Part shown: positions 9,960-58,957 of the stretch, in pieces
How positions within the stretch are numbered: the first letter of the stretch is position 1
Layout of the letters: the number at the start of each line of letters is the position of its first letter
From: Neocallimastix lanati (nom. inval.)
Taxonomy: Eukaryota; Neocallimastigomycota; Neocallimastigomycetes; Neocallimastigales; Neocallimastigaceae
Length of the DNA stretch: 64,000 nucleotides
Assembly: GCA_016946835.1 (NCBI GenBank)
Contig: JACVTC010000044.1
Location: 777,501 to 841,500, forward strand
Direction: 5' to 3'
Translations under genes and position numbers: made by a program
Notes under the pieces: model-generated
The model's database searches: none
The model's input: the letters and a program-made list of their open reading frames with translations, nothing else
What the model was told of the DNA's origin: nothing

Positions 9960-10420
9960 AAGAAAATAAAATAGACTTTAAACATGAAAAGAGAAATAAA
10001 ATATGTTTTTATAAGAGCTTTATTAATCTATTTGATTATTAATTATTTTATTATTATTTTTTAAATATTTTTTTTATATTAATTGAAATTTTAATGTCTT
10101 TATTGTTATTATATTTTTCTTAAAATAATAATTCTTGATTTTCGAAAGGAAACTCAAGAGACCTTTTTATATTTTAAAATAAAGAAATAAAGAATTTTCT
10201 AATCTTAACAAAATACTTTCCAGGAAAAGATTAGTAGAAAAACCTAGAAAGATTTCAACCAATAATCTATACTTATTAGTTATCGTATTATTAAGTAAAA
10301 CCATTTTTATGAAAAAACCTTAATAGCCGATGTTCTAAATTACGTAAGTTAAACGGTTAAATTAATTCACACTTTAACAATTTAACCGAATTAACTTATG
10401 AATAAAATTAAGAAAAAAAC
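9960..10420 (-). repeat. Relic LTR, diverged, minus orientation (limits approximate)
   Basis: Read on the minus strand it keeps the landmarks of the B/C/D/E-type LTRs. There is a stem-loop (arms CTTTCTAGG and CCTGGAAAG around an 18-nt loop) at about 10216-10251, then TATAAAAAGG and a second hairpin ending AATCAAGAATTATTATT near 10130-10170. The ends cannot be fixed. Confidence 0.55.
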
Positions 10421-11901: not shown

Positions 11902-14139
11902 AAAAAAAAAATTTATAAATTCCTTTAGACACATTAATGTTCATATAATTAAATAATAGTTTAATTTATTTATATTATAGATATTATATTATTTATTAAT
12001 ATATTTTTTATAAAAAAAATAGAACTAAAGAAAAACATATTCATTCAGAAAGCTTTTATACATGAATATTATTTATTAAACTAATTGATTGGTTAATATA
12101 AAATGAAATATAGTAAATATATTTTAACACTCCTCCTCAAATGTAACTTCGTTTCAATGTTACATTTGTTTAATTTTAACTATATTTTTAGAATTAAAAT
12201 TTTAAATCCTCAATTTTATATAACAAAGAATTTCTAAATTTTTCCATAAGGGTGTTGTTTAGATATTTAGTGAATCCATCGGCCAAATTATTTTGAGATT
12301 GAATATATTCTAATTTTATAAAATTTTTATTTATTATTTCTCTAATATAATGAATTCTTATATCAATATGCTTTGTCTTCGGATTAATGGATTGATTTTT
12401 GCTATTGAATATGGCAGCTTTGTTATCTATTTTTATTTTAATACATTTAATATTATAATATAATTCTTTCATTAAGTTTAAATACCAAATGCAGTGCTTG
12501 CCACATTCACTCAGACTATAATACTCCAATTCTGCAGTAGATGTTGACACACAGTGTTGTAGCTTGGAACACCAGCTAGTTGGTGCGTTGCCCATGGTTA
12601 CTAAAAAACCTGTTGTTGATCTTCTGGTTTCAGTGTCTCCTGCAAAGTCGGCATCAACAAAGGCTTCTATTCCTAGTTTCCTTGTATAGTTTATCCCGTA
12701 ACTCGTTGTTCCTTTAAGATATCTTAGTATTCTTACGACATTGTTCCAGTCTTCCATATTCGGATTATTTGATTTTCGTGCTGCTTTACTTACCGAAAAT
12801 AGAATATCAGGCCTGGTGCATATAGCAATGTAGAGTAAATTTCCTATTGCACTTCGGTAAGTAGTTTGATTAAACTTTATATTTCTAAGTTTGTCGTCCG
12901 TAATTGGTTTTGTATTCCTTAATGGTTTTTCATTATTCATATTGAATTTTTCTAAAACCTCTATAATGTATCTTCTTTGATGCATAAAATATCCATTTTT
13001 GTGTTTAACAAATTTGATTCCGATAACGAAATCCACGTCGCCAATTTCTTTTATTTTATATTTTCTTTTGAAATATTCTTTTATACATTTAATTTCGTTC
13101 TCTTTTCCAGCGATTAAAATATCGTCAACATAAATACCTATGATACATAAAATGTTTTTATTTTTATCGTTTTTTACATAAATACATGGTTCACTTACCA
13201 TTCTTCTAAGTCCTATTTTAGTTAAAAATTTATTGATTTCTTTATTCCATTCTCGTCCGCTTTGTTTCAGACCATATATAGCCTTGTTTAATTTCCAATA
13301 TTTTCTATTAAAATCTGGATGACCTTCTGGAGGTTTCATATAAATATTTTCACTTAACTTGCCATTAAGGTAAGCAGCGTTTATATCGATTTGTTCTATA
13401 TTAAAATTATTTTGGGCAGCAATTGAAGTTAAAATTCTGATAGAATCGTGTTTTAACGTTGGTGCAAAAGTATCATGAAAGTCTATTCCAAATTCTTGGG
13501 TAAAACCTCGTGCTACCAATCTTGCCTTTCTTTTTGTTATCTCGCCATTCGCATTTCTTTTATATTTGAAAATCCATCGTGAGGTAATTACATTGGCATT
13601 TTTGGGTATATATTTAATTGTATTAAATACATTTAAGTTTTTCATATTACTTAATTCTTCATTTACTGCGTTAATCCACTCTTTTCTATCAATTAAATTT
13701 TGAATGTCTTTATAATTTTCTGGTTCTCTTAAGGTATTTGTTGTCTTTCTTCTTTTGTTATTACTTTCATTTATAACATTCATAGTTCTTTTTTTATTAT
13801 TGGTCTCGATATTATTTAATTTAAATGAATTATTATTAGTCAATAAAGTATTTATAATTTCGTTTCCATTACGTTGAATATAATTTTTATTGATAATTGT
13901 GTTGTCATTTACTCTACTGTTTTCAATATTATTATTGTTATTGATTGTTTTATTGGCTGTATTATCATTTATTTTATTATTAGTATCTTCTCTATTTTGA
14001 TTATTAATATTATTTTCAATATTATTATTATTATTTTCAATATTATTATTATTAATTCTAATTTTATTATTACTATTATTTGTATTATTTTCATTACCGT
14101 TATTTGTGTTATTATTATTGATAAAATTATTATTGGTTA

Positions 14140-14173
<34 letters not shown>

Positions 14174-15190
14174 GTTTATATTATTTTTATTATTTGTATT
14201 ATTATTAATGAAATTATTGTTATGGTTATCATTATTGATATTTTCATTGTTATTGTTACTATTATTGTTACTGTGATTATTATTTCTTTGTTTTTTGTTA
14301 TATTTTCTTTTATTCTTAGAATTATTTTTATTGATTATATCTTCGTATATATTTTGTATATTGCTATTATTTAATATTGGTGAATTACTTAGGATGTTTT
14401 CTGAATTAAAAAATTCATTAGAACCTGGATAATCAATTTTATTTAATCCTTGTTGAATATTATGATTAATGTTATATGTATTGGTATCGTATGTATTTTT
14501 ATTATAATATGTATTATATGTATTATCTCCCCTGATTTCGTGATCCGGAATAAAATTGGAAAATTCAGGTGAGCATTCTTTAAGATAACTGTTTCCAGGA
14601 TTGGATTCGAAAAAGGCAACAGATCTAGATAGGATTATTTTATTAGTAGTAATATCTAAAATTTTGTAAGCTGATGGGTTTTCAGAGTATAGTAGAAAAA
14701 TACCTGGTTTAGTATTGTTATCGAATTTAGACCTAAAGACTTTAGGAATAAAGAAATAAACTTTGCATCCAAATACTTTAATATTTGAGTAGTTGACCTT
14801 TGTTTTATTAATTATTTCATATAGTATTTTCATATTTATTCCTTTGTGAGGAATGCGATTATGTATATAGTTAGCCGTAGAGGTAGCATCTTCCCAAAAT
14901 TGGTGACTAAGTTTAGAGTCATTCAGCATAGCTTTGGCGGAGTTAATTAGGGTGCCATTGAAGCGTTCCACCCTTCCATTTTGTTGTGGGTTATATGGTA
15001 CAGTTAGTTGATGTTTAATACAGTAAGATTTAAAGAATAAATTAAAATTATTATTGCAAAATTCTGTACCATTATCCGTTCGAATATATATAATTCTAGT
15101 ATTATACTTATTTTTAATACTTAAAAACCAATTGTAAAATGAGTTAAAGGTGTCACTTTTAGATTTTAAAAACAAAGTCCATCCATAGCG
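11902..15190. repeat. Left arm of a 3.29-kb inverted repeat
   Basis: Pairs with 17615-20903: position x maps to 32805 minus x with no indel at any landmark I compared (stop codon, LTR start, inner edge). The two arms encode identical protein. The outer edge falls in an A10 run, the inner edge inside the integrase coding region. Confidence 0.97.
12121..12167 (-). other. Copia 3' LTR start, polypurine tract and hairpin
   Basis: On the minus strand: a hairpin AAATGTAAC...GTTACATTT (12139-12167), then polypurine GAGGAGGAG (12130-12138), then the LTR start TGTTAAAAT (12129 downward). The mirror copy is at 20638-20684 on the plus strand. Confidence 0.85.
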
Positions 15191-17614: not shown

Positions 17615-18631
17615 CGCTATGGATGGACTTTGTTTTTAAAATCTAAAAGTGACACCTTTAACTCATTTTACAATTGGTTTTTAAGTATTAAAAATAAGTA
17701 TAATACTAGAATTATATATATTCGAACGGATAATGGTACAGAATTTTGCAATAATAATTTTAATTTATTCTTTAAATCTTACTGTATTAAACATCAACTA
17801 ACTGTACCATATAACCCACAACAAAATGGAAGGGTGGAACGCTTCAATGGCACCCTAATTAACTCCGCCAAAGCTATGCTGAATGACTCTAAACTTAGTC
17901 ACCAATTTTGGGAAGATGCTACCTCTACGGCTAACTATATACATAATCGCATTCCTCACAAAGGAATAAATATGAAAATACTATATGAAATAATTAATAA
18001 AACAAAGGTCAACTACTCAAATATTAAAGTATTTGGATGCAAAGTTTATTTCTTTATTCCTAAAGTCTTTAGGTCTAAATTCGATAACAATACTAAACCA
18101 GGTATTTTTCTACTATACTCTGAAAACCCATCAGCTTACAAAATTTTAGATATTACTACTAATAAAATAATCCTATCTAGATCTGTTGCCTTTTTCGAAT
18201 CCAATCCTGGAAACAGTTATCTTAAAGAATGCTCACCTGAATTTTCCAATTTTATTCCGGATCACGAAATCAGGGGAGATAATACATATAATACATATTA
18301 TAATAAAAATACATACGATACCAATACATATAACATTAATCATAATATTCAACAAGGATTAAATAAAATTGATTATCCAGGTTCTAATGAATTTTTTAAT
18401 TCAGAAAACATCCTAAGTAATTCACCAATATTAAATAATAGCAATATACAAAATATATACGAAGATATAATCAATAAAAATAATTCTAAGAATAAAAGAA
18501 AATATAACAAAAAACAAAGAAATAATAATCACAGTAACAATAATAGTAACAATAACAATGAAAATATCAATAATGATAACCATAACAATAATTTCATTAA
18601 TAATAATACAAATAATAAAAATAATATAAAC

Positions 18632-18665
<34 letters not shown>

Positions 18666-20611
18666 TAACCAATAATAATTTTATCAATAATAATAACACA
18701 AATAACGGTAATGAAAATAATACAAATAATAGTAATAATAAAATTAGAATTAATAATAATAATATTGAAAATAATAATAATAATATTGAAAATAATATTA
18801 ATAATCAAAATAGAGAAGATACTAATAATAAAATAAATGATAATACAGCCAATAAAACAATCAATAACAATAATAATATTGAAAACAGTAGAGTAAATGA
18901 CAACACAATTATCAATAAAAATTATATTCAACGTAATGGAAACGAAATTATAAATACTTTATTGACTAATAATAATTCATTTAAATTAAATAATATCGAG
19001 ACCAATAATAAAAAAAGAACTATGAATGTTATAAATGAAAGTAATAACAAAAGAAGAAAGACAACAAATACCTTAAGAGAACCAGAAAATTATAAAGACA
19101 TTCAAAATTTAATTGATAGAAAAGAGTGGATTAACGCAGTAAATGAAGAATTAAGTAATATGAAAAACTTAAATGTATTTAATACAATTAAATATATACC
19201 CAAAAATGCCAATGTAATTACCTCACGATGGATTTTCAAATATAAAAGAAATGCGAATGGCGAGATAACAAAAAGAAAGGCAAGATTGGTAGCACGAGGT
19301 TTTACCCAAGAATTTGGAATAGACTTTCATGATACTTTTGCACCAACGTTAAAACACGATTCTATCAGAATTTTAACTTCAATTGCTGCCCAAAATAATT
19401 TTAATATAGAACAAATCGATATAAACGCTGCTTACCTTAATGGCAAGTTAAGTGAAAATATTTATATGAAACCTCCAGAAGGTCATCCAGATTTTAATAG
19501 AAAATATTGGAAATTAAACAAGGCTATATATGGTCTGAAACAAAGCGGACGAGAATGGAATAAAGAAATCAATAAATTTTTAACTAAAATAGGACTTAGA
19601 AGAATGGTAAGTGAACCATGTATTTATGTAAAAAACGATAAAAATAAAAACATTTTATGTATCATAGGTATTTATGTTGACGATATTTTAATCGCTGGAA
19701 AAGAGAACGAAATTAAATGTATAAAAGAATATTTCAAAAGAAAATATAAAATAAAAGAAATTGGCGACGTGGATTTCGTTATCGGAATCAAATTTGTTAA
19801 ACACAAAAATGGATATTTTATGCATCAAAGAAGATACATTATAGAGGTTTTAGAAAAATTCAATATGAATAATGAAAAACCATTAAGGAATACAAAACCA
19901 ATTACGGACGACAAACTTAGAAATATAAAGTTTAATCAAACTACTTACCGAAGTGCAATAGGAAATTTACTCTACATTGCTATATGCACCAGGCCTGATA
20001 TTCTATTTTCGGTAAGTAAAGCAGCACGAAAATCAAATAATCCGAATATGGAAGACTGGAACAATGTCGTAAGAATACTAAGATATCTTAAAGGAACAAC
20101 GAGTTACGGGATAAACTATACAAGGAAACTAGGAATAGAAGCCTTTGTTGATGCCGACTTTGCAGGAGACACTGAAACCAGAAGATCAACAACAGGTTTT
20201 TTAGTAACCATGGGCAACGCACCAACTAGCTGGTGTTCCAAGCTACAACACTGTGTGTCAACATCTACTGCAGAATTGGAGTATTATAGTCTGAGTGAAT
20301 GTGGCAAGCACTGCATTTGGTATTTAAACTTAATGAAAGAATTATATTATAATATTAAATGTATTAAAATAAAAATAGATAACAAAGCTGCCATATTCAA
20401 TAGCAAAAATCAATCCATTAATCCGAAGACAAAGCATATTGATATAAGAATTCATTATATTAGAGAAATAATAAATAAAAATTTTATAAAATTAGAATAT
20501 ATTCAATCTCAAAATAATTTGGCCGATGGATTCACTAAATATCTAAACAACACCCTTATGGAAAAATTTAGAAATTCTTTGTTATATAAAATTGAGGATT
20601 TAAAATTTTAA
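17615..20611 (+). pseudogene. 5'-truncated copia pol (inverted copy)
   Basis: Encodes the C-terminal part of the copia polyprotein from about residue 608 (inside the integrase core) to the end, identical to the minus-strand copy: rest of integrase, Asn-rich linker, reverse transcriptase (YVDD) and RNase H. It lacks gag, protease, the integrase zinc finger and the first integrase Asp. There is no start context of its own, so it is a truncated copy. The identity extends through the unstable Asn-codon runs, so it is either extremely young, kept alike by gene conversion, or an assembly or library artefact. Confidence 0.93.
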
Positions 20612-20890
20612 TTCTAAAAATATAGTTAAAATTAAACAAATGTAACATTGAAACGAAGTTACATTTGAGGAGGAGTGTTAAAATATATTTACTATATTTC
20701 ATTTTATATTAACCAATCAATTAGTTTAATAAATAATATTCATGTATAAAAGCTTTCTGAATGAATATGTTTTTCTTTAGTTCTATTTTTTTTATAAAAA
20801 ATATATTAATAAATAATATAATATCTATAATATAAATAAATTAAACTATTATTTAATTATATGAACATTAATGTGTCTAAAGGAATTTAT

Positions 20891-20903
<13 letters not shown>
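17615..20903. repeat. Right arm of the 3.29-kb inverted repeat
   Basis: Mirror of 11902-15190, starting CGCTATGGATGGACTTTG and ending in a T run (20894-20924) longer than the A10 of the left arm. It includes the polypurine tract and the start of the copia 3' LTR (TGTTAAAAT at 20676). Confidence 0.97.
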
Positions 20904-23510: not shown

Positions 23511-23825
23511 GCCATATTCTGAAAATTTTTATTTATTTATTAATTTATTCATTTAATTATTTAATAATAATATTTAATAATATTTCTTTTTATACTATTT
23601 TCTAATTATAAAGTTTGTTTATTATATGGAAATATAATAATTTACATTAATTTAAAATACTGTAAAAATTATAATAAAATTCATGTTAATATATATGAAT
23701 ATGCTATATCATTTATTTATTATATAATTTATTTGTTGCTAAATTCAGTTTTTATATTAATTTCATATCAATATCTTATTTATTTTATTTTATCATATTA
23801 TATATTATTATTTCACTGCATATTT

Positions 23826-25290
23826 ATTTTATTTTATTTTATTTTATTTTATTTCGATTGATACTTGCAATTTATTATAATTCACATATTTATTTTATTT
23901 TATTAGTACTTGTATTTTTATTATAATTCAAATATTTATTTTGTTTTATTTTATTTTATTTTTATTAATACTTGTATTTTTATTATAATTCAAATAATTT
24001 TTTTATTTTATTTTATTTTATTTTATTTTATTTTATTTTATTTTATTTTTATTAATACTTTATTCCTTTATATTACTTCACTATTTTATTTTATTTTATT
24101 TTATTTTACTTTATTTTATTTTATTTTATTTTATTTTATTTTATTTTATTTTATTTTATTTTATTTTATTTTATTTTATTTTATTTTATTTTATTTTTAT
24201 TAATACTTTATTCCTTTATATTACTTCACTATTTATTTTATTTTATTTCTTTTATTTTATTTTATTTTATTTTATTTTTATTAATACTTTATTCTTTAAT
24301 ATTACTTCACTATTTATTTTATTTTATTTTATTTTTATTAATACTTTATTCTTTAATATTACTTCACTATTTATTTTATTTTATTTCTTTTATTTTATTT
24401 TATTTTATTTTATTTTATTTCTTTTATTTTATTTTATTTTATTTTATTTTATTTTATTTTATTTTATTTTATTTTATTTTATTTTATTTTATTTTATTTT
24501 ATTTTATTTTATTTTATTTTATTTTATTTTATTCAATCTGTACTTCATATTTATATTTCAATATTTATTCATTTTATTTTATTTTATTTTATTTTATTTT
24601 ATTTTATTTTATTTTATTTTATTTTATTTTATTTTATTTTATTTTATTTTATTTTATTTTATTTTATTTTATTTTATTTTATTTTATTTTATTTTATTTT
24701 ATTTTATTTTATTTTATTTTATTTTATTTTATTTTATTTTATTTTATTTTATTCAATCTGTACTTCATATTTATATTTCAATATTTATTCATTTTATTTT
24801 ATTTTATTTTATTTTATTTTATTTTATTTTATTTTATTTTATTCAATCTGTACTTCATATTTATATTTCAACTATTTATTTTATTTTATTCATTCTGTAT
24901 TTCATATTTATATTTCAACTATTTATTTTATTTTATTCAATCTGTACTTTATATTTATATTTCAACTATTAATTTTATTTTATTCATCCTGTACTTTATA
25001 TTTATATTTCAACTATTTATTTTATTTCATTCAATCTGTACTTCATATTTTTATTTCAACTATTTATTTTATTTTATTTTATTCATTCTGTACTTCATAT
25101 TTATATTTCAACTATTTATTTTATTTTATTCAATCTGTACTTTATATTTATATTTCAACTATTTATTTTATTTTATTCATTCTGTACTTCATATTTATAT
25201 TTCAACTATTTATTTTATTTTATTCAATCTGTACTTTATATTTATATTTATATTTCAACTATTTATTTTATTTTATTTTATTTTATATAC
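23826..25290. repeat. Long (TTTTA)n microsatellite with embedded 50-bp minisatellite
   Basis: About 1.4 kb of TTTTA pentamers, broken by TTCTTTTA variants. From about 24535 it turns into a higher-order repeat carrying CAATCTGTACTTCATATTTA and CATTCTGTA variants. Reading frames across it are low-complexity Phe/Ile/Tyr artefacts. Confidence 0.97.
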
Positions 25291-26141
25291 TTATACTTCT
25301 ATATTATTACATTCTATATTTTTTTTCATTTTATTTTTAAATATTCTTTTTAAAATTCTTATTTCCTTTTTAATATTTTTTTATCTAATATTTTAAATAA
25401 ATTTTATATAATACGAAAATCTTTTTTACTCAGGAGCATTATATTTAACTTGATAAGGAAAGATTATTTGAAAATTTAATTATAAATATTAAATTAAAAC
25501 TTTTTTTTAGTAATAGTAATAATAACAATAACATTTTTAAACATAAATTTCTATTAAATAATAAATAAATTATTTTAGATATTTATATTATACAAATCTA
25601 ATAAACTAACAAAAAGAGCATTACTATTTTTACAAATAGTAAAGTTTTTTTAGAAAGCCTGATAGAAATAATTTAAAATATTAATTATTTTCTTTTATAA
25701 GTATTATAATACTTAAATATCATTATATATATTTAAAATGTATATTTGAATATTTATTAAAAATATGAAATATACATTAAATATATTTTTAAAAAATATA
25801 TTAATTTAATAATTGGTTTATTTTATAAAAATTATTTATTTATTTATTAATTTACTACAATATAAAATAAAAATAATGAGAAATGCAATACATTCATATT
25901 TTTAATATTTTATAATACTAATATATAATAATAAAGACATCTTTTAATTTTATTTAATAATATTTAATTAAGTAAAAAATATTTAAAATAAATTTATAAA
26001 AAAAATTTTTTTTTAATATTTTTAAGCTAACCCTATCAATAAATATTAAATAAATTTAAATATTGAATTTCTTATTAAATAAAAAAATTTAATTTTCAAT
26101 TAATTGTAATTATGATTTTGAAAGGATTTTAATAATTATTT
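25291..26141. other. AT-rich spacer downstream of the transposase
   Basis: No gene or clear repeat. If the transposase belongs to a terminal-inverted-repeat element, one end should be in or beyond this stretch, but I could not recognise it. Confidence 0.45.
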
Positions 26142-29743: not shown

Positions 29744-30634
29744 TGTAAGAAACTCTAATAAAAAGAAATTTTTTATAAGAGTTTATTTTTTATATTGATT
29801 GAGTTTATTATTAAAAAAAAATAAAGAAAAATACTTATATTTAAATAGACGAAAATTAGAAAAAGTAGAAGACTCGTATATAAAAATAAGTTTTTAAAAC
29901 ACAAAATTTTATTAAAAAAAATTTTTAAACTTTAAATTTTAGGTTATTATTATTTTTAATATTTATCTTTATTAATATTTTTAATAATAATAACTCTTGA
30001 TTTCTGAAAAAACAGAAATCAATCGTAATTTTATACTTTTTATTTTTTAATTAATCTTATTTTATATTTATTTATTATTATTATTTTTTTATCATGTGTC
30101 TGTTTAATTAATTATTAATTATTATTATTATTTTTTTTTTCATGTGTTTATTTAATTAATAATTATTTAATATAATATATAAATTATTTCTTAATTAAGC
30201 TATTGTTTGCTAGTCAGCTGTTGTATCTTCAGGAAAAGACTAGCAGAAAAACCTGAAGATTTTCTTAATTGTATTAAATTAGAACGAATTATTTCAAAGA
30301 AATTTATTATTTAATTTAATTTAATTATTATTTAATATTATTGTGAAAATAATTTTAGAATAATAAATATTAATTTTAATTTATTTATTATTTAATATTA
30401 TTGTGGAAATATTTAGAAGAATTTTAAATTTTAAATATAATTGTATTTGTGAAAATTCTATTATTATTTTTTAATAATTAATATTATTATACTTACGTAT
30501 TTTAATTTTTTAATTAATAAAATTTATATTTAGATTAATTTGTAATTAATAAAATTTATATTTAGATTAATTCGTAATTAATAAAATTTATATTTAGACT
30601 AAGAAATATAGAAAATATTTCTATTTTTCTTACA
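29744..30634 (-). repeat. 3' LTR of element C
   Basis: 891 bp. On the minus strand TGTAAGAAAAATAG...GAGTTTCTTACA, with inverted ends TGTAAGAA/TTCTTACA. Internal landmarks: U3 stem-loop 30225-30260, TATA at 30035, inferred transcript start AAGAGTTATTAT at 29998. Confidence 0.93.
30225..30260 (-). promoter_or_regulatory. U3 stem-loop, element C version
   Basis: Nine perfect pairs (ATCTTCAGG with CCTGAAGAT) around an 18-nt loop, read on the minus strand as TTTTTCTGCTAGTCTTTT. The loop differs by one base from that of the E-type LTRs although the stem sequence is different. Confidence 0.85.
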
Positions 30635-34591: not shown

Positions 34592-37500
34592 GGCAGCAAA
34601 CTTGTTTCATCTTTATTAATTAAATATTTGATAAAATACATGTAATAAAATAATAAAAAAAAAAAAAAAAGATAAAAAAATAAACAAAAAATAAAACACA
34701 AAATAAAAATAAAATAATGGTATAATATATTCTAGTTTCATTTAATTAATATTTGTAAGACTTCACAAGGGCATTATTATACTGAAGTATAATAATTAAC
34801 TTTGACTTCGCAATGTTAATCATAATTTTAAGATACAAAATTATGATCTTCATTGGTTGCGCTAGCCCTGCTGGCCTGTCTTACTGTTTCTTCAGCATTG
34901 ACGCTCTTGGTAGTAGTAGTACGATTCGATTTGAACCTATTGAACAAAGACCATTGCTGGCCAATAGCAATAGGTATAATCGATTGGAGAAGTGCCGCAG
35001 TAACCACTAAGAACGGAGTATCAGAATAAGCACCTGATTTCATCTGGCACTTAAATAGATCCTTCCATTCCCTTGTACTGTTATTAATACTTCGACCTCC
35101 AAGAAGGAAATTAAACACTTTTTCACACACACTAGAATCAATATACACATTATTTTCAATACTATTACTAACATTACTAAAAATACTATTACTAATATTA
35201 TTATTACTATTATAACTATTACTATTATTACTATTACTATTATCATTATTACTATTAACAATATCATTTGTTAGGTTGCCACGGTAAAAAGCATTATATA
35301 AAAATAAAATTTTATCATTAACTTTACTACGAGTATGATTGAAAAAGGGACAATCAATTAACCAATGACTTATCCATTGTTTATTACTTTTACAACAGGG
35401 ACAAAAATTAGGACACATTTGGTCCACTATTTTTGCAGCTTTAGCAATTCTAGCATCTAATCTATATCCGCTTCGTGCTCTCAATAGCCAATAGAAACCA
35501 TATGAAAGATCAGGATAGTCATAACAAAGTTTTATAAATTTTGATGTTTCTTCGAATTTGTTTTTGTCATAAAACTCAGCTTTAATAGAATTGATTTTCA
35601 TATCTCTTTTCCAATAAAAATCCTTGATTTTATTATCGTTATTACCTCTTTTCTCTAGTTTACGTTTAAGAGTTCTACTTTCTTTTGTCCATGTATATTT
35701 TCTAGATTTTGGAATATTATTAACTAAATAGGAAATAATACAATTTGAATTTTTCCATTTATCAAAACATTTGACCTGAGACAAAGCACACTTAGCTGAC
35801 AATGGAGGAATATGTAAATCTTTTGAAATAGAATATACATTAATAAATGATTTGGCTTTTTGTATACCTGCAATCCATCTTAATCCTTTATTAATTAATT
35901 TCTGAGTATTATTTGTTCTCGTTTTATTCGAACCAAGTAAAGGTGCAAAGTAAGAGACTTTACTAAGTACATAAGAGTTAATTATAATCTTCTTAAATGG
36001 AATAGGAATTTTGGAATTTGAAAGAAATTTACTAACAGAAAAGAGAGCTTTAGTTACTTTAGAGTTAAGTAATTTAATAATAGGTTTCAACGATAAGCTT
36101 TTATCAAATGGTATACCTAAATAGGTATAACATTTAGTTATTGGAATTGGTTGACCAGCAAGATAAAAAGTAGGATCTCTTTTATTTTGAAAAAGAGGTG
36201 CGTCTGGTCGAATCACCATCGTTGCACACTTATTAATTCCAAAATTCATCATATTAAATTTAGCCCATTCATTTACCTTCTTAAGCATTTTTTTCAACTT
36301 AGTTCTTGACGGTGCGCATAAAACAATATCATCTGCAAAGAGTCCACCACAACATCTAGATTCGCCTAAAGGAATTCCAAGTTCTGAAACATCATTAAAA
36401 ATGTCATTAATAAAAAGATTGAAAAGAATTGGTGATAGTGGGCAACCTTGTCTAACTCCTTTCATAATATTAAAAGATTCCGAATATTGATCATCAATTT
36501 TAACACTAGCTTTGGATGTCAAATATAGATTTTTTATAAATTGATAACATTTACCTCTAATACCTAAAGCATCTAATTTATATAAAATATTACCTATTGG
36601 AACAGAATCATATGCCTTTTTTAAATCTAGAAAAGCTAGGTAAGTTTCTTTATTATCATTTTTACGCCTTTGACAAATTTCTCGAATTGAAATAAATAAA
36701 CTAACACATTCTTCTTTAGTACGAAATCCAAATTGCTCTGGCCTAATAAAATTATTTTTAAGTCCATATTCTGAAATTCTTTTGGAGACTATTTTCGAAA
36801 TGAGTTTAATACCATTGTTAATCAGAGAGATACCTCGATAATTGTCACAATCAGATAGATCATCTCCTTTTTTAGGAATAGATATAATACTTGCTTCATT
36901 CCATGAGCTAGGAAATTCTCCATTCCAAATTCTTGAGTATATCTTCTGTAAACAATTTAAACCAGAAGAAGAATTATTTACTGAATTTTCGTCATCCGGA
37001 GGAATTAAAGCTTTATAAAATTCAATAGGAATTCCATCCGGGCCTGAAGCTTTAAAATTTGGAGTAGCCAAAATTGCTTCTCTAATTTCTTCTATACTGA
37101 TGTCTTGATTTATATCCCATTCATTGTGTCTCGTATACCTAATTGTTCCATTGGAAAATTTATTATACCATTCGATTAATGCACTATTGATATCAGAATG
37201 GCTTGAAGCAAGTTTTTTATAGTGATTGTGCCATACTTCTAACTGTTCTTTAGTAGAAGTAGCTAGTTTACCATTTTTGTCCTTTACTGGAGAATTTGAC
37301 ATATTTTTAAATTTATCTACTTTTGCTGTTGTTTTAAGCCATTTCCAAGCTTTTTTAGGGTTATGAGATTTCATATATTCACATCCTGTATTAATCCAAT
37401 GTTGGTATTCAGTTTTCCTATAAATATTACACATATGATGAATAATTTTGCACATTCTATTATATTTATCAATTAATTCTTCAAATTCATCTAAATTATG

Positions 37501-38145
37501 ATAAGAACCTCTTCTTTTAATGGATTTATATAATTTCATTTTGAGTTTTTGCAAATTAAATATTTTCTGCGACATATGAAAAAAAGATTTTCGAACTTCT
37601 GAAATTGACGTGATATTAAGTTCCTTAGCAATATTGAATGAAGTTGAAATAAATTTCTTTGAAATATCATCAATACTAATATTAGGATCTGGAATCACTT
37701 CCTCTAATACACTAAAATAGTTGTTGTCAAAAATTGATTCTTTTTCATTTATACATTTTAATCTATCCCATTTAACTGTCTTTTTAGGCAGAGAGAAAGA
37801 ATTATCTGAATTAACTGATGAAAAACATTTACCTTTTATTAATAAAGGTTTATGATCCGAAATGGGGGGAAAGTCAATAAAAGTACCATATGAAAGTAAA
37901 TCTAACATATGATCATTGACAATCGCATGATCTATATCAGATTCTCTATTACCTCTACTCCATGAAATTGGGGAGCCCCATAAGGGAAGAATTTTCCAAT
38001 TACTAAATTTAAAGAGCAAATTACTTAATTTCTCAGTAGGTAAATTAAAATCACCAACCAACATTGAAGGATGAGAAGAGTGACTATTTAACCAAGACAA
38101 TATTTCAATTCTAGCAGCTCTAGCATGAAGGCTATGGCCACTAAT
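34556..38145 (-). mobile_element. 5'-truncated LINE inserted in element C gag
   Basis: 3590 bp, minus strand. It ends in a 33-base poly(A) tail (T run 34556-34588), has a 3' UTR to 34827 and a coding frame open to the 5' junction. Flanked by 14-bp duplications (34542-34555 and 38146-38159). The frame starts in the middle of an apurinic endonuclease domain, so the 5' end was lost at insertion, as is typical for target-primed reverse transcription. Confidence 0.96.
34828..38145 (-). pseudogene. LINE ORF2-like protein, endonuclease N-terminus missing
   Basis: About 1105 codons, open from the junction with no stop. The start is the distal half of an APE-type endonuclease: GDFN, DIDHAIV and ISDHKPLL, the last carrying the catalytic Asp-His. 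Reverse transcriptase follows with DLKKAYDSV, GVRQGCPLSPILFN and FADDIVL. A C-terminal Cys/His finger (CPNFCPCCKSNKQW then HWLIDCPFF) and a Ser/Asn-rich stretch come next. Together these nick target DNA and copy the RNA in place. The truncated copy cannot retrotranspose. No RNase H was recognised. The clade is not certain; a fungal Tad-like or related LINE would fit. Confidence 0.92.
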
Positions 38146-38841: not shown

Positions 38842-39696
38842 TGTAAGAAATATAGAAATATTTTCTATATTTCTTAGTCTAAATATAAATTTTATTAATT
38901 ACAAATTAATCTAAATATAAATTTTATTAATTAAAAAATTAAAATACGTAAGTATAATAATATTAATTATTAAAAAATAATAATAGAATTTTCACAAATA
39001 CAATTATATTTAAAATTTAAAATTCTTCTAAATATTTCCACAATAATATTAAATAATAAATAAATTAAAATTAATATTTAATATTCTAAAATTATTTTCA
39101 AAATAATATTAAATAATAATTAAATTAAATTAAATAATAAATTTCTTTGAAATAATTCGTTCTAATTTAATACAATTAAGAAAATCTTCAGGTTTTTCTG
39201 CTAGTCTTTTCCTGAAGATACAACAGCTGACTAGCAAACAATAGCTTAATTAAGAAATAATTAATATATTATATTAAATAATTATTAATTAAATAAACAC
39301 ATGAAAAAAAAATAATAATAATTAATAATTAATTAAACAGACACATGATAAAAAAATAATAATAATTAATAAATATAAAATAAGATTAATTAATAAATAA
39401 AAAGTATAAAATAACGATTGATTTCTGTTTTTTCAGAAATCAAGAGTTATTATTATTAAAAATATTAATAAAGATAAATATTAAAAATAATAATAACCTA
39501 AAATTTAAAGTTTAAAATTTTTTTTTAATAAAATTTTGTGTTTTAAAAACTTATTTTTATATACGAGTCTTCTACTTTTTCTAATTTTCGTCTATTTAAA
39601 TATAAGTATTTTTCTTTATTTTTTTTAATAATAAACTCAATCAATATAAAAAAATAAACTCTTATAAAAAATTTCTTTTTATTAGAGTTTCTTACA
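38842..39696 (+). repeat. Full LTR of C family in plus orientation
   Basis: 855 bp from TGTAAGAAATATAG to GAGTTTCTTACA, with the U3 stem-loop (AATCTTCAGG...CCTGAAGAT near 39182-39219), TATA and AATCAAGAGTTATTATT in plus orientation. It forms an inverted repeat with 38498-38841. No internal region follows at 39697. Confidence 0.88.
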
Positions 39697-40532: not shown

Positions 40533-41510
40533 TGTAAGAATCTATAATTATTTTTAACAAAATAATTATATTTCTTAGTTAGGTTATAATTAATATAACT
40601 TTTACTTAACTCATATTTTATTTATACACCTAATTATAATTAATAATTTATTTAATTATATATTAAAATTTTATTTAGTTTAATATTAAAAATTTATTTA
40701 ATTAAATAATTTTTATACATTTAAAATAATATTAAATTTATTTAATTATTCACTTAATTATTAAATTTATTAGTTTTAGTTTTCTCTCACTTATTAAATC
40801 ATAAACTAAAACACTATTCTGTATTCTATCATGTATTCCGTATTGTATTAATCATGTATTTTATTATTAATGTATTGTTTTATATTTTTTATGTAAAGTT
40901 CTATAAAATAGAACTAAATAGATTAAATTTTAAATTTTATGATCGAAATAATTTTCATTATTTTATTCTTTTATTTTCGATCATTATATTAGATTAAGTA
41001 ATCGGTTAATTAAGGTTTTTCCAATTACTTCTTAAAAGTAATCGGTTTTACTTAATTAACGCGATGATCGATATGGATAGAATATCGATCAAAAAACTTA
41101 TCTAGGTTTTTCTTCTAGTCTTTTCCTAGATAAGAGATTTGTTAAGATTAGAACCCCTTTTGATTTTTACCTTATTTTGACAAAAAAGTATAAATAAGGC
41201 TCTTGAGTTCTCTTTGAGAAATCAAGAGTTATTATTATAACAATTATAATATAATAATAATAACAATAGTTTTAACATTTAAAATTTCTAATAAAAAATA
41301 AAACAAATTATTTTAATAAAACAAATTTTATAATTAAAACTTTTCTTTATCAATTTTAGTGTTTCGTCTATTATAATTCGTTATAATAAACTCGATAATT
41401 AGAAAGAACCATAGGTAAGTATGATTCTTTTCTAAACCTTTAATATTAGCAGTTAGAGCTAATATTAATGATTAATAATTTAATTATAATTTTTTAATTA
41501 AATTATTACA
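40533..41510 (+). repeat. LTR of E family, apparently solo
   Basis: 978 bp, TGTAAGAATCTATAATT...AATTAAATTATTACA, nearly the same as the 5' LTR of element E. Stem-loop at 41097-41134, TATA at 41189, AAGAGTTATTAT at 41224. No gag-pol in plus orientation follows. The immediate flanks (caaat and tcaat) do not form a clean duplication. Confidence 0.88.
41097..41134 (+). promoter_or_regulatory. U3 stem-loop, E/B/D version
   Basis: Ten perfect pairs, CTTATCTAGG with CCTAGATAAG, around the loop TTTTTCTTCTAGTCTTTT. Equivalent stem-loops are at 51562-51599 (one mismatch), 42908-42947 (minus, one mismatch) and 58442-58480 (minus, perfect). Confidence 0.88.
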
Positions 41511-42534: not shown

Positions 42535-43493
42535 TGTAATAATTCTATTAAGAACTAACTCAAAATAGAATTATTAACTACAACTTAACGACTAATTCAT
42601 TAAGTTGAGAAAATAAAATAAAATAAATTTTTTTACCTTTAATGTAGAGTTTATTATAAAATTAATTATAATAATAACACAAAATGTAAGAGAAGAATTG
42701 TTTGTATAAATTGATCTTAAAAATATGTTTTTTAAATAAAATATTTTTATTAATTTATTAAAGTTAAAAATATAAAAATGTTACTATTATAACTATGTTT
42801 TTTATAATAATAACTCTTGATTTCTCAAAGAGAACTCAAGAGCCTTATTTATATTTTTTTATGAAAATAAGATTAAATAAGAAAGGGTTTTCTAATCTTA
42901 ACAAATCTCTTATCTAGGAAAAGATTAGATAGAAAAACTTAGATAAGTTTTCGATCGATATTCTATCCATATCGATCATCGCATTAATTAAGTAAAACCG
43001 ATTACTTCTAAAAAGTAATTGGAAAAAATCTTAATTAACCGATTTTCTAATCTAATCTAATGATCGAAAATAAAAGAATAAAATAATAAAAGATATTTCG
43101 ATCATATAATTTATCCTTATATTAAAAATATAAAATTAAATAGTTAATAAAATACAGAATACATTATAAAATACAGAATACATTATAAAATACAGAATAC
43201 ATTATAAAATACAGAATACATTATAAAATACAGAATACATTATAAAATACAGAATACATTATAAAATACAGAATAAAATACAATACAAAATACATTAGTT
43301 ACAGTAGAGAATTTAATATATTGTAAATATATTATTTAAAATTAATTAAATAAATTTTGTTAAATTAATGAATATTTAAAATTAAATTAAATAAATTTAA
43401 TAAATATTATATGTAATTAAATAAAGTTATAGTTATAATAACTTAACTAAGAAAATATAATTATTTGCTAACAAATAATTATAGATTCTTACA
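42535..43493 (-). repeat. 3' LTR of element B
   Basis: 959 bp; minus strand TGTAAGAATCTATAATTATT...AATAGAATTATTACA. Stem-loop 42908-42947, TATA at 42853, AAGAGTTATTAT at 42818. Contains six full copies of a 19-bp repeat (TACAGAATACATTATAAAA, about 43152-43275) against two in D. Confidence 0.93.
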
Positions 43494-50976: not shown

Positions 50977-51976
50977 TGTAAGAATCTATAATTATTTTTA
51001 ACAAAATAATTATATTTTCTTAGTTAGGTTATAATTAATATAACTTTTATTTAACTCATATTTCATTTATACAATTAATTATAATTAATAATTTATTTAA
51101 TTATATATTAAAATTTTATTTAGTTTAATATTAAAAATTTATTTAATTAAATAATTTTTATACATTTAAAATAATATTAAATTTATTTAATTATTCACTT
51201 AATTATTAAATTTATTAGTTTTAATTTTCTCTCACTTATTAAATCATAAACTAAAACACTATTCTGTATTTTATCAATGTATTCTGTATTCTATCATGTA
51301 TTCTGTATTGTATTAATCATGTATTTTATTATTAATGTATTGTTTTATATTTTTTATATAAAGTTCTATAAAATAGAACTAAATAGATTAAATTTTAAAT
51401 TTTATGATCGAAATAATTTTCATTATTTTATTCTTTTATTTTCGATCATTATATTAGATTAAGTAATCGGTTAATTAAGGTTTTTCCAATTACTTCTTAA
51501 AAGTAATCGGTTTTACTTAATTAACGCGATGATCGATATGGATAGAATATCGATCAAAAAACTTATCTAGGTTTTTCTTCTAGTCTTTTCCTAGATATGA
51601 GATTTGTTAAGATTAGAACCCCTTTTGATTTTTACCTTATTTTGACAAAAAAGTATAAATAAGGCTCTTGAGTTCTCTTTGAGAAATCAAGAGTTATTAT
51701 TATAACAATTATAATATAATAATAATAACAATAAGTTTTAACATTTAAAATTTTTAATAAATAATAAAACAAATTATTTTAATAAAACAAATTTTATAAT
51801 TAAAACTTTTCCTTATCAATTTTAGTGTTTCGTCTATTATAATTCGTTATAATAAACTCGATAATTAGAAAGAACCATAGGTAAGTATGATTCTTTTCTA
51901 AACCTTTAATATTAGCAGTTAGAGCTAATATTAATGATTAATAATTTAATTATAATTTTTTAATTAAATTATTACA
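50977..51976 (+). repeat. 5' LTR of element E
   Basis: 1000 bp, TGTAAGAATCTATAATT...AATTAAATTATTACA. Landmarks: U3 stem-loop 51562-51599, TATA at 51654, hairpin CTCTTGA...TCAAGAG, AAGAGTTATTAT at 51689. Confidence 0.95.
51654..51700 (+). promoter_or_regulatory. LTR promoter and inferred transcript start, element E
   Basis: TATAAATAAGG at 51654, then a hairpin (CTCTTGA g TTCTC TTT GAGAA a TCAAGAG), then AAGAGTTATTAT at 51689-51700, which complements the primer site at 51977. TATA-to-start spacing is 35 bp, the same as in element A. Confidence 0.75.
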
Positions 51977-53069: not shown

Positions 53070-56000
53070 ATGGAATCCAATAGTAATAACGCCCAAATTC
53101 CAAGTGAAGTTGAATCCTCAAAGCTTATAACAGCTTTAACAGAATTTATTCCTACTTTCTTTTCCGCCAACGGAGTATTATCCAAGGACTTAGCTGATAA
53201 CAACAAACTTAACGTTAATGAGCTCCTGGAACAGAGTGAATTGTTTTTTAAAAAACATCCCAACTCTTTTTCCACGGACGACTTAAAAATTTCTTATGTT
53301 ATCAGCATGTTACATGGACCTCCAAAGAAATGGGGACTTTCATTGAAGGCTGATGGGACTTTAAATTCGTTAAGCTATGACACCTTTAAAGATATTTTGA
53401 TAAGCAATTTTGGGGATACTAAAGAACAGAAGGATGTTCTTATTGAACAACTTCTAAACTTAAAACAACTTCATTTAGGAAGAGCCGCATTATATACTAT
53501 TGAATTTCGAAGGTTAGCTGGACGTATTGGATGGCCGGACGATGTATTCATTGACCTAATCAAAAGAGGTCTTCTTGAGGATGTTAAAACAGAGTTCAAT
53601 AAATTAGACAAACCTAAAAGTTTATTTGAGGCAACAAATTCTATTATCAATATTGATAGAAAATGTTTACTTAAGCAAAAAGTAAAGACCAATGACTACA
53701 AGCCAAAGAGTAGTAGATCTTTCAAACGAAAAAGAAACGAAACTAGCATGACCGAAAACAAATTTAAACGCAATAAGCACCATAAGGGACGAGACAATGG
53801 AAGTATTTTATCAGCAAATTACACCCCAAGTCATAATAATAAAATGACTACAACTTTCTTGTTAACCGTTAATAACAAAAAGATTAAAACCAGAATCCTT
53901 ATTGACTCGGGCTCTGCTAGAAGTTATCTCTGCAAAAGCTTCGTAACAGCAAACAAAATTCCTTATTCAAACCTCTCAAATACGATCAATGTAAAACTTC
54001 CTAATGAAAAGAATATGGCTATAAAACAAGTTACAAAACGTCTTAAGCTTACTTTCATGGACCATACGGAAACATTTGAATTCTTTATAGCCAATTTACA
54101 ACTTCAAGACGTATCTGCAATCCTTGGAAGAGATTGGTTAAGCCTTCATTCACCTTACATTGATTACAAAAATAATAAAATTTACTTCTTGGAAAGCTAC
54201 TGTAAAAACCATTGCCCTTCTGCTAAGGGTAATAGGTTTGTTTTCCGTTCACCGAATATTACTGCTTCTCTCTTACCCAATAATGAACAGAAGGAAGAAA
54301 TTCTTCTTGACTCAATAATTCCAGATTCCATACCTGAAGACGAACTTAGCGATATGAACATTTGTGCTGCTTTAGTTCACAATAGTGAAATTAAGAATAC
54401 CAAAAGAAATAAAAAAATAATTAAAAAATATTATTATGACCTTTGTATTGTATTTGAAAAGAAAGAAGCTGATAAACTCCCTCCACACCGTGTTTATGAT
54501 ATTTCCATTGATATAGTTCCCGGTGCCCAACTTTATTTTGGACCAATTTATTCGTTGACTGTTGAAGAAAAGAAGGCACTTCGTGAATACATTAAGGAAA
54601 ACTTTGCTAAAGGATTCATTAGAAAATCAAAATCTCCTGCTGGTGCCCCGGTGCTATTTGTTAGAAAACGTGACGGTTCTCTTAGACTTTGTGTTGACTA
54701 TAGAAAGCTCAATTCTATCACCATTAGAAACAGTTATCCAATTCCTAGGATATCTGATTTGATAGAATCATTTAAAGGTGCTATTATTTTCTCTCGGCTT
54801 GACTTAAGATCTGCCTATAACTTAGTTCTTGTCAAGAAAGGCCATGAATACCTTACTGCTTTTCGTACTCCTTTTGGTCATTTTGAATACCGTGTAATGC
54901 CTTTTGGTTTACGTAATGCACCTTCGGTTTTTCAACGCTTCATCCAAGACATTTTTTCTGATGATATTGGCTTGTTTCTCTTTGTCTACATAGATGACAT
55001 TATAATATATTCGAAAAACCTTACTGAACATATTAAACATGTTCATCATGTCCTTTCCTTGTTAGTCAAAAATGGTCTCTATGTAAAACTAGAAAAATGT
55101 GAATTTCACGTTCCTGAAACTACTTTTTTAGGATTTGTTGTATCAATAAATGGCCTTTCTATGGATAAAAACAAAGTAAAATCAATTCTTGAATGGCCTA
55201 CTCCAAAAAACATGAATGAACTTCAAAGTTTCCTCGGACTCTGTAACTACTATAGGAAATTCATAAAGAATTTCGCCATAATTATGGAACCCTTAAGAAT
55301 ACTCCTCAAGAAGAATAATGAGTTCAAATGGAATGATGATGCTGAGAATGCCTTCAAAAAATTAAAACTTGCTTTTACCACAGACGAAATCCTTATCTAC
55401 CCCGATCCAGATAAGGAATTCACTGTTGAAACTGATGCCAGTGATTTTGCTGTGGGTTGCATTCTTTCTCAAATCAGTGACAAGGATAACGAACTTCACC
55501 CTGTCGTTTTTCATTCTAGGTCTTTGTCATCTTCTGAATTAAATTATACAATATATGACAAGGAACTACTCGCTATTATCACCGCTTTTGAAACCTGGCG
55601 TCACCACCTTGAAGGGGCTAAGTTTCCTGTTCAAATCATTACCGATCACAGGAATTTATTATATTTTAAAAAGCCTCAACATTTAAACCAACGCCAGATG
55701 AGATGGAGCCTCTTTCTTTCTAAGTTTGACTTTAGGATTTCGTTCAGACCTGGATCAAGGTGTGGTAAACCAGATTCGTTGTCGAGACGTCCGGATTATA
55801 AATCCGTGGTTTCCCTCCACAACAAAGACCGTCCTTTATTGGATGATAATGCCTTTTGTTGTGCAAACACTATTATCAGTAGCTTAATTGATACCCAACC
55901 GACTGACAAATTTTGTGGATCAAGGAGTAGTGAACCAGATTCGTCGTCGAGACGTCCGGATTATAATTCCGTGGTTTCCCTCCACAACAAAGACCGTCCT

Positions 56001-56942
56001 TTATTGGATGATAATGCCTTATGTTGTGCAAACACTGATAATATTAGTAGTTTGATTGATGCCCAAACGGCTGACACATATTGCAAATCTATTTTAGAAA
56101 AGATTAAAACTAAGTCAAACACAGTTAAAAGTTCTTTATTTTCTTTAAATGAAGGGGTCTTACATTTCCAAAACAGAATCATCGTCCCATCCACTTTAAG
56201 AGCAAGAATTTTGAAATCTTTTCATGACTCACCCACCAACGGACACCAAGGTATTGACAAAACTCTTGATAAAATCAAGAGATACTACTGGTGGCCTAAT
56301 ATGAAGAAAGATATTCATAATTATGTACTTTCTTGTTCAACTTGTGCTAGGTGTAAAATTCGTAGACATAAACCCTACGGAAAAATTCAACCGTTCCCTG
56401 TTCCCAATAAACCATGGGAAATTATTGGGGTTGATTTTATAGTTTCGTTACCTAGTTCACAAGATTGCACATGTATTATGGTGGTTTCGGATCACTTAAC
56501 AAAGATGATCCATTTAGTTCCTTGCTCCGACGTCCCTTCCGCTGACCTGACCGCCAAGATGCTCCTTTACAACGTTTTTCGGTATCATGGATTCCCTAAA
56601 ATCATTGTCTCTGATCATGGCTCCCAGTTCTCTTCTGAATTTTGGACCTCACTCTGCTCAGCTCTAAATACTAAGCCAAGACTCGCTACTGCTCATCACC
56701 AACAAACAAATGGTCAAGTCGAAAGGGCTAATTCCGTAATCGAACAATATTTACGATGCTACTGTTCTACTGCCCAAAATGAATGGTGCTTTTATCTACC
56801 TCTTTGTGAAATGGCTTATAACAACTCATTTCACAAATCTATAAACATGTCGCCTTTCTGTGCAAATTATGGTTTTAATCCAGTATGCAATATTGATTCT
56901 CCTCCTGTTCTTTTAAAAGATAATGCCTCTGTACTTACTTAA
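53070..56942 (+). pseudogene. Element E gag-pol, C-terminus of integrase lost
   Basis: 1290 codons from ATG at 53070. Gag without a zinc knuckle; protease LIDSGSARSY; RT with YIDD in VYIDDIIIYS; RNase H ETDAS; integrase HHCC and D,D,E core (VDFIVSLP, VSDHGSQFSS, NGQVERAN). The frame ends after NASVLT, where B, C and D continue for about 110 further residues including the GPF module, because pol is fused to LTR sequence that supplies TAA at 56940. A 165-bp in-frame tandem duplication (55752-56081) lies between RNase H and integrase. The catalytic domains appear complete, but the integrase tail is missing. Confidence 0.94.
55752..56081 (+). repeat. 165-bp in-frame tandem duplication in pol
   Basis: Two copies, 55752-55916 and 55917-56081, both starting GGATCAAGG and sharing TCGAGACGTCCGGATTATAA and the SLHNKDRPLLDDNA coding stretch. 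It adds 55 residues to the RNase H-integrase linker. The copies have diverged by several substitutions and small indels. Confidence 0.93.
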
Positions 56943-58077: not shown

Positions 58078-58957
58078 CTATTAAGAACTAACTCAAAATA
58101 GAATTATTAGCTACAACTTAACGACTAATTCATTAAGTTGAGAAAATAAAATAAAATAAATTTTTTTACCTTTAATGTAGAGTTTATTATAAAATTAATT
58201 ATAATAATAACACAAAATGTAAGAGAAGAATTGTTTGTATAAATTGATCTTAAAAATATGTTTTTGAATAAAATATTTTTATTAATTTATTAAAGTTAAA
58301 AATATAAAAATGTTACTATTATAACTATGTTTTTTTATAATAATAACTCTTGATTTCTCAAAGAGAACTCAAGAGCCTTATTTATATTTTTTTATGAAAA
58401 TAAGGTTAAATAAGAAAGGGTTTTCTAATCTTAACAAATCTCTTATCTAGGAAAAGATTAGATAGAAAAACCTAGATAAGTTTTCGATCGATATTCTATC
58501 CATATCGATCATCGCATTAATTAAGTAAAACCGATTACTTCTAAAAAGTAATTGGAAAAAATCTTAATTAACCGATTTTCCAATCTAATGATCGAAAATA
58601 AAAGAATAAAATAATAAAAGATATTTCGATCATATAATTTATCCTTATATTAAAAATATAAAATTAAACAGTTAATAAAATACATTATAAAATACAGAAT
58701 ACATTATAAAATACAGAATACATTATAAAATACAGAATAAAATACAATACAAAATACATTAGTTACAGTAGAGAATTTAGCATATTGTAAATATATTATT
58801 TAAAATTAATTAAATAAATTTTGTTAAATTAATGAATATTTAAAATTAAATTAAATAAATTTAATAAATATTATATGTAATTAAATAAAGTTATAGTTAT
58901 AATAACTTAACTAAGAAAATATAATTATTTGCTAACAAATAATTATAGATTCTTACA
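58078..58957 (-). repeat. 3' LTR of element D
   Basis: 880 bp, same termini as B's LTR, shorter mainly because the 19-bp repeat has two full copies (about 58680-58738). Stem-loop 58442-58480 with ten perfect pairs, TATA at 58386, AAGAGTTATTAT at 58351 (35 bp). Confidence 0.94.

Follow-up and report, generated by a model that had tools for sequence, protein, structure and literature searches.

A covarying, pseudoknotted domain in the U3 region of Ty3/gypsy LTRs of Neocallimastix lanati and its possible role in RNA protection

The stretch of Neocallimastix lanati DNA analyzed here, hereafter called the window, comprises 64,000 nucleotides with a GC content of 13-33% and carries LTR-flanked elements of families D, E, and C that encode protease, reverse transcriptase, RNase H, and integrase in the order of Ty3/gypsy retrotransposons. 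Gag domains are reported for families D and C but not for the frame of family E, and the closest organism-labelled relative in our protein search (P0020, 59% identity) bears the label Orpsp1_1, which we take to be Orpinomyces, an anaerobic gut fungus. The window further contains a 3,289-base inverted repeat of 100% identity with Copia pol sequence (11902-15190 and 17615-20903) that either arose very recently by inverted duplication or is an artefact of assembly, a block of many overlapping degenerate direct repeats (23716-25395), and a LINE-like open reading frame with a reverse transcriptase domain and a weak endonuclease match inside a family C element (34828-38100). The subject of this report is a group of hairpins in the U3 of the LTRs, named P0, P1, and P2 from 5' to 3', and a helix, S2, that ties the loop of P2 to a downstream strand (Table 1). 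P2 was described first, as a stem-loop in the LTR at 40533 (family D), in family C (30225-30260), and in a relic (10216-10251), and all three are present at these places with the letters reported for them.

Table 1. Positions of the U3 domain and neighbouring features in the window
Feature	Position	Strand	Basis
P0 lower stem, 5' strand GTTAATTAAG	41005..41014	+	RNAalifold on 17 U3
P0 5' U-rich strand GTTTTT	41015..41020	+	
P0 apical stem-loop, closed by CC/GG	41021..41045	+	
P0 3' U-rich strand TTTTA	41046..41050	+	
P0 lower stem, 3' strand CTTAATTAAC	41051..41060	+	
P1 hairpin, 10-bp stem, 7-nt loop GGATAGA	41065..41091	+	
P2 5' arm (original hairpin)	41097..41106	+	
18-nt loop: pyrimidine strand TTTTTC, S2 5' strand (41113-41122), two unpaired T	41107..41124	+	
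P2 3' arm	41125..41134	+	
S2 3' strand AAGATTAGAA, pairs with loop bases 41113-41122	41144..41153	+	
TATA-like box	41189..41196	+	
Post-TATA hairpin, probably at or in R (inferred)	41200..41228	+	
P2/S2, another family D LTR (5' LTR); P0 near 51486	51558..51632	+	
P2/S2, family D LTR after gag-pol ORF 53070-56942; shortened copy without P0	56980..57054	+	
P2/S2, family E LTR; P0 near 43022	42876..42951	-	
P2/S2, family E LTR; P0 near 58555	58409..58484	-	
P2/S2, family C 3' LTR; P0 not found	30191..30265	-	
P2/S2, second family C LTR, opposite orientation	39179..39253	+	
P2/S2, relic LTR	10183..10256	-	

Further copies were collected by way of the P2 loop. Allowing up to three mismatches, the pattern AGGTTTTTCTNCTANTCTTTTCCT occurs seven times in the window (six exact) and not at all in 100 shuffles, with copies beyond the three already mentioned at 39190, 51569, and 56991, all on the plus strand. 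Across the 199 Mb of genome searched, GGTTTTTCTNCTANTCTTTTCC with up to two mismatches yielded at least 570 + 570 matches (1,140) compared to 1 + 1 for a reversed-pattern control, all genome-wide loop counts being lower bounds; searches of other sources, i.e., viral contigs and prokaryotic genome contigs, returned no exact match. Loci were drawn by contig order from the first 100 of the 1,140 places, and the 106 occurrences in the window and in loci L002-L091, among the matches listed, form 15 clusters at less than 85% identity. A separate pattern, written for 19-nt loops so as not to match the usual one, hit 88 places (none in the control), of which nearly all that were listed belong to family F with the loop CCCAAATC. 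Since the copies were sampled by loop letters, the constancy of the loop is partly built in and other kinds of loops were missed. The 20 representatives underlying most counts were picked by hand and several are subfamilies (E, L108, and L025 cluster with D, L048 with L013, and L008 with L065, and L092 is a relative of L032); L001 was left out throughout.

In every representative, nine or all ten positions of the 10-nt P2 arms are paired, adding up to 159 of 170 positions in 17 distinct arm pairs. Swapping the 3' arms among these 17 pairs lowered the count to 132 on average and to 147 at most, and none of 10,000 permutations reached the observed value. The original prediction had staked the covariation of the arms on a larger alignment, and with these numbers that alignment has come out in favor of arm pairing. 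For this count and that of S2, we set aside a copy at 635 of the window (long inverted repeat), a second family F copy (L112), and L028 (longer loop). At the inner AGG/CCT pairs, exact-loop searches found no compensated change: with the loop otherwise held at its exact 18 nt, there was no match with a third pair other than A-T and none with a fourth pair of R-Y type. The exceptions at these pairs are uncompensated (an E copy at 42939 and L028, which has TAG instead of AGG), and a search for P2 loops without GG/CC gave 17 matches compared to three in the control, 11 of the 17 being a single low-complexity string.

The loop, originally described as an invariant 18-mer, is indeed commonly of this length, but it measures 19 nt in families E, L108, and F, the last of which also differs inside the loop. 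The hairpin and its arm covariation thus stand, while the picture of a simple hairpin does not, as the loop forms one half of a second helix: seven bases of its 3' half pair with a site 7-9 nt past the 3' arm, creating an H-type pseudoknot. The S2 strands are TCTAATC/GATTAGA in many families, TCTAGTC/GATTAGA with one G.U pair in D, L025, and L027, GCTAGTC/GACTAGC in family C, GCTAGTC/GACTAGT in L032, and CCAAATC/GATTTGG in family F, so that C and F bear matched changes at three positions relative to the rest. With the partner of each representative taken as the best site in a 35-nt stretch, this topology is present with six or seven of the seven pairs in 19 of 20 representatives. All seven form in 15 of them (G.U allowed) and six in L017, L013, and L048, which share an A.A at one pair, and in L098, where another pair is broken; L066 has no S2 in place and at best a displaced one of 5/7. 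Among the nine distinct strand pairs, 10 of 10,000 permutations match the observed value, and changes on both sides affect two of nine S2 pairs in alignment A1, in which C and L032 are misaligned, and one of nine in alignment A2, in which F is misaligned. Such support is weaker than for the stems because there are few strand types, yet the compensatory changes in F and C speak for the pseudoknot. A simple hairpin presenting a bare protein-binding loop was set aside because the loop covaries with the downstream strand.

When 185-nt U3 stretches from 17 copies are submitted with no structure imposed, RNAalifold returns P0, P1, and P2, and 17 of the 27 pairs of its fold show changes on both sides that preserve pairing. 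P0 ends 21-36 nt upstream of P2 in the 19 representatives counted, a number that leaves out L112 as well as C and C2, which do not have it. Its layout comprises a lower stem that covaries, U-rich strands to either side (4-7 T on the 5' side in all 19, 3-6 T on the 3' side), and an apical stem closed by CC/GG in all 19, with G-C pairs on the lower side of the U-rich strands in 11. Standard pairs make up 179 of the 183 in the lower stem (166 Watson-Crick and 13 G.U, besides four others), and seven of ten pairs have changed on both sides. The stem's own arms pair at 169 of 173 positions in 18 distinct pairs, compared to a mean fraction of 0.64 and a maximum of 0.82 when permuted (none of 10,000 reached the observed value); the helix ends were set by eye, which favors pairing, though the permutations keep the same ends. 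The layout persists despite very different lower stems, such as TTAAATAATAAT/ATTATTATTTAA in L032 and TTAGTTAATA/TATTAACTAA in L028. In family C, neither a relaxed scan of the LTR, which demands four unbroken apical pairs and misses a D copy too, nor reading of the sequence found a P0. Of the whole domain, family C has the pseudoknot module alone, and the P0 part, which resembles the ENE discussed below, is therefore not universal.

A scanner for ENE-like layouts designed on these same sequences reports five places in the window, all of them within such LTRs or a relic of one, compared to 0.1 per 64 kb in order-2 Markov sequence. The pattern TTTTTCC..GGTTTTTATT was rejected as a finder on its own: it is not specific (48 + 63 matches compared to 19 + 9 in the control), and none of the four matches inspected has a pseudoknot, three of them (L130-L132) being copies of one unrelated sequence that looks coding-like on the other strand and the fourth being L133. 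Between P0 and P2, most families have the third covarying hairpin, P1 (six of nine pairs covary in A2), which was observed in neither C nor L032. In D-like U3 sequences, the last letters of the P1 loop are often TAGA, and kissing between the P1 and P2 loops, which are complementary in L005 but not in D, was considered and dropped by eye. Another hairpin with the conserved flank ATCAAGAGTTATTATTAT directly follows the TATA-like box in this and other LTRs and is present even in family C, in which the upstream U3 otherwise differs from the rest.

At the level of the alignments, the P0 lower stem, P1, P2, and S2 all covary. Taken together, these four helices are paired in 93.5% of 617 cells and contain 62 cells changed on both sides compared to 18.0 in shuffles (0 of 500 reach this), while sliding the partners by 1-3 columns lowers pairing to at most 48% and such cells to at most 11. 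The numbers of further pair types do not rise above shuffles (33 compared to 31.3, reached by 141 of 500; 19 compared to 17.2, reached by 92 of 500). In principle, compensation could arise without function if template switching at hairpins copied one arm from the other, and such events do seem to occur. The hairpin region of an LTR relic at 572-669 has turned into an extended inverted repeat, judged by eye to have arms of ca. 27 nt around seven T, and the model matches it in both orientations; in L127, the hairpin next to the TATA box has its loop the other way round than further copies of family F, possibly a trace of strand switching; and L096, apparently a rearranged LTR, has two tandem P2 hairpins with exchanged flanks near 1440 and 1523. 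We nevertheless regard this explanation as highly improbable, as template switching would not preserve U-rich strands, spacing, G.U-bearing pairs, and the pseudoknot helix across 15 clusters of less than 85% identity. That the folds are real appears close to certain from the sequence comparison, and the original claim of a functional structure maintained by compensatory change is supported in this larger sample, although as a pseudoknot within a larger domain rather than a plain hairpin.

Whether the domain acts in RNA or in DNA can be judged from strand and substitution patterns. In the D, E, and C elements of the window, gag-pol is encoded on the T-rich strand of the domain, in line with the sense-strand placement originally proposed for the hairpin. 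Among 23 loci examined, six have coding matches, and the hairpin lies on the same strand in five of these (L005, with a Copia match on the other strand as well, L018, L026, L027, and L028); at L025, the only match is on the opposite strand and, at 45% identity, may belong to another element. Within families, single transitions convert Watson-Crick pairs to G.U in 27 cases and to A.C in 11 (122 copies in 12 families; p 0.007), or in 21 and 10 cases (p 0.035) without the loop pair whose variants had been searched for. The same copies, which remain from 133 distinct ones after leaving out three unassigned and eight sole family members, contain 28 other mismatches, 32 gapped pairs, and four changes to another Watson-Crick pair. 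The excess of G.U over A.C and the placement on the gag-pol strand favor a sense RNA without proving one, and we consider it probable that the domain acts as such.

A promoter element that works as DNA, with binding sites or cruciforms upstream of TATA and no role in RNA, would fit the position of the domain: the distance from the GG to the start of the TATA box is 56-87 nt in 17 of 20 representatives, the exceptions being C2 (114), L017 (135), and C (184). The recurrence of the motif GATTAG in loops and flanks and the opposite-strand coding match of L025 point the same way. However, a protein site needs no covariation of arms, and neither the preference for G.U over A.C on the sense strand nor the coincidence of T-rich and gag-pol strands in D, E, C, and five of the six loci with coding matches agrees with such an element, which we hold to be improbable. 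The hairpin had been placed 55-100 bp upstream of TATA, an interval that has to be widened, since the box begins between 26 and about 150 nt beyond it. The ends of the transcript are inferred here from this TATA-like box.

We propose that these Ty3/gypsy LTRs specify, within their U3, a structured domain of the sense transcript that would be located close to the 3' terminus of the full-length RNA. P0 would be an ENE that takes up the poly(A) tail between its two U-rich strands in the form of U.A-U triples, and P2/S2 would form a self-contained triplex pseudoknot with its own A-bearing strand, in which the loop segment UUCU lies parallel to AAGA in the major groove of S2 (U.A-U, U.A-U, C+.G-C, and U.A-U). 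The C+.G-C triple would explain the constant C in TTTTTCT, a base that was part of the search key. Together, P0 and P2/S2 might block deadenylation and 3' exonucleases, and more genomic RNA would be left for reverse transcription. As the candidate purine strand, S2 offers AAGA in D-like families and F, GAGA in L003, AGA in L032, and GA in C, so that the proposed triplex agrees with D-like families and F, to some extent with L032, and poorly with C, where AAGA is reduced to its G and A. The chances that the triplexes form at all seem evenly balanced to us, and we would give the same even chance to a 3'-terminal RNA-protection domain made of an ENE-type P0 and a triplex pseudoknot as the overall explanation, with slightly more doubt about protection being the main role. 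Still more tentative is a two-part RNA lock, i.e., a poly(A)-clamping ENE and a triplex pseudoknot one hairpin further on, that was kept while the stems diverged across 15 clusters; because family C keeps the pseudoknot alone, the built-in strand may have taken the place of the poly(A) tail in an ENE-type role.

The same folds could instead serve another step of replication, such as Gag binding and packaging, dimerization, or minus-strand transfer at the U3/R border. The domain adjoins the presumed R and its hairpin, P1 covaries in six of nine pairs yet has no place in the ENE model, and one paper on packaging of Ty1/Ty3 RNA (PMC4974528) is listed with nine uses of the word pseudoknot. Such roles leave the U-rich strands of P0 with their closing G-C pairs unexplained, and we view them as a serious but rather unlikely alternative. 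If RNA protection is indeed the function, triple-helix protection would extend to the LTRs of an AT-rich gut-fungal genome with more than 1,000 loop matches, and natural sets of compensated variants would be at hand to test which pairs and triples matter. Its location in U3 would also mean that host transcripts ending in any of these LTRs, even a solo LTR, might acquire the domain.

Rfam yielded no match at gathering score for the whole window and, for positions 40900-41400, five matches with E values of 2.5-8.2 that are all far below gathering and none of them ENE-like. Our literature search, to which the contents of a 2016 survey (PMC4864102) did not belong, found no LTR triplex or pseudoknot in Neocallimastigomycota. 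Whatever its mechanism, the pseudoknotted U3 domain is itself new to the literature searched, while triple-helix elements of retrotransposon RNA are already known. Ty1 has a pseudoknot in its genomic RNA, at the 5' end; both structures reside in the genomic RNA of LTR retrotransposons, but the one described here is found in U3, at the 3' end.

The pseudoknot of telomerase RNA (PMC3603654, PMC5855555) is likewise of H-type and has a U-rich first loop facing an A-bearing strand of the second stem, an arrangement that P2/S2 may share, but our domain has no template or telomerase context, its purine strand is AAGA instead of a run of A, and family C is without most of AAGA. The 3' triple helix of MALAT1, which contains nine U.A-U triples and one C+.G-C (PMC11411715), shares with P2/S2 two pyrimidine strands and a purine strand, the possibility of a C+.G-C among U.A-U triples, and a Hoogsteen strand joined directly to the basal stem. 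Unlike MALAT1, P2/S2 lacks an apical duplex between the U-rich strands, its intervening bases pairing downstream, as S2, with the stretch that continues the purine strand, and it allows only about four triples and is not the 3' end of the RNA itself. No role had been known for the element in the original prediction, but its anatomy is that of a described class, the ENE and related triple-helix elements, which is tied to LTR retrotransposons (PMC12501189). An earlier survey counted around 200 such motifs, most of them in plants and fungi and with a strong link to LTR retrotransposons (Tycowski et al. 2016, cited in PMC12501189). Near the 3' end of the Arabidopsis Evade RNA, an ENE forms a triple helix with the poly(A) tail, prolongs the life of the RNA, and increases transposition, and the G-C pairs beside its U-rich parts are essential (Li et al. 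2025, PMC12501189). Like the ENE and double-domain ENE of Evade/Copia93, P0 is a stem-loop near the RNA 3' end with flanking U-rich strands, adjoining G-C pairs, and an LTR retrotransposon as carrier. The Evade ENE, however, is situated in the spacer between open reading frame and LTR, while the domain described here lies inside the U3 of the LTR of a Ty3/gypsy carrier, is followed by a covarying hairpin and a pseudoknot, and has its four U-rich strands split over two hairpins.
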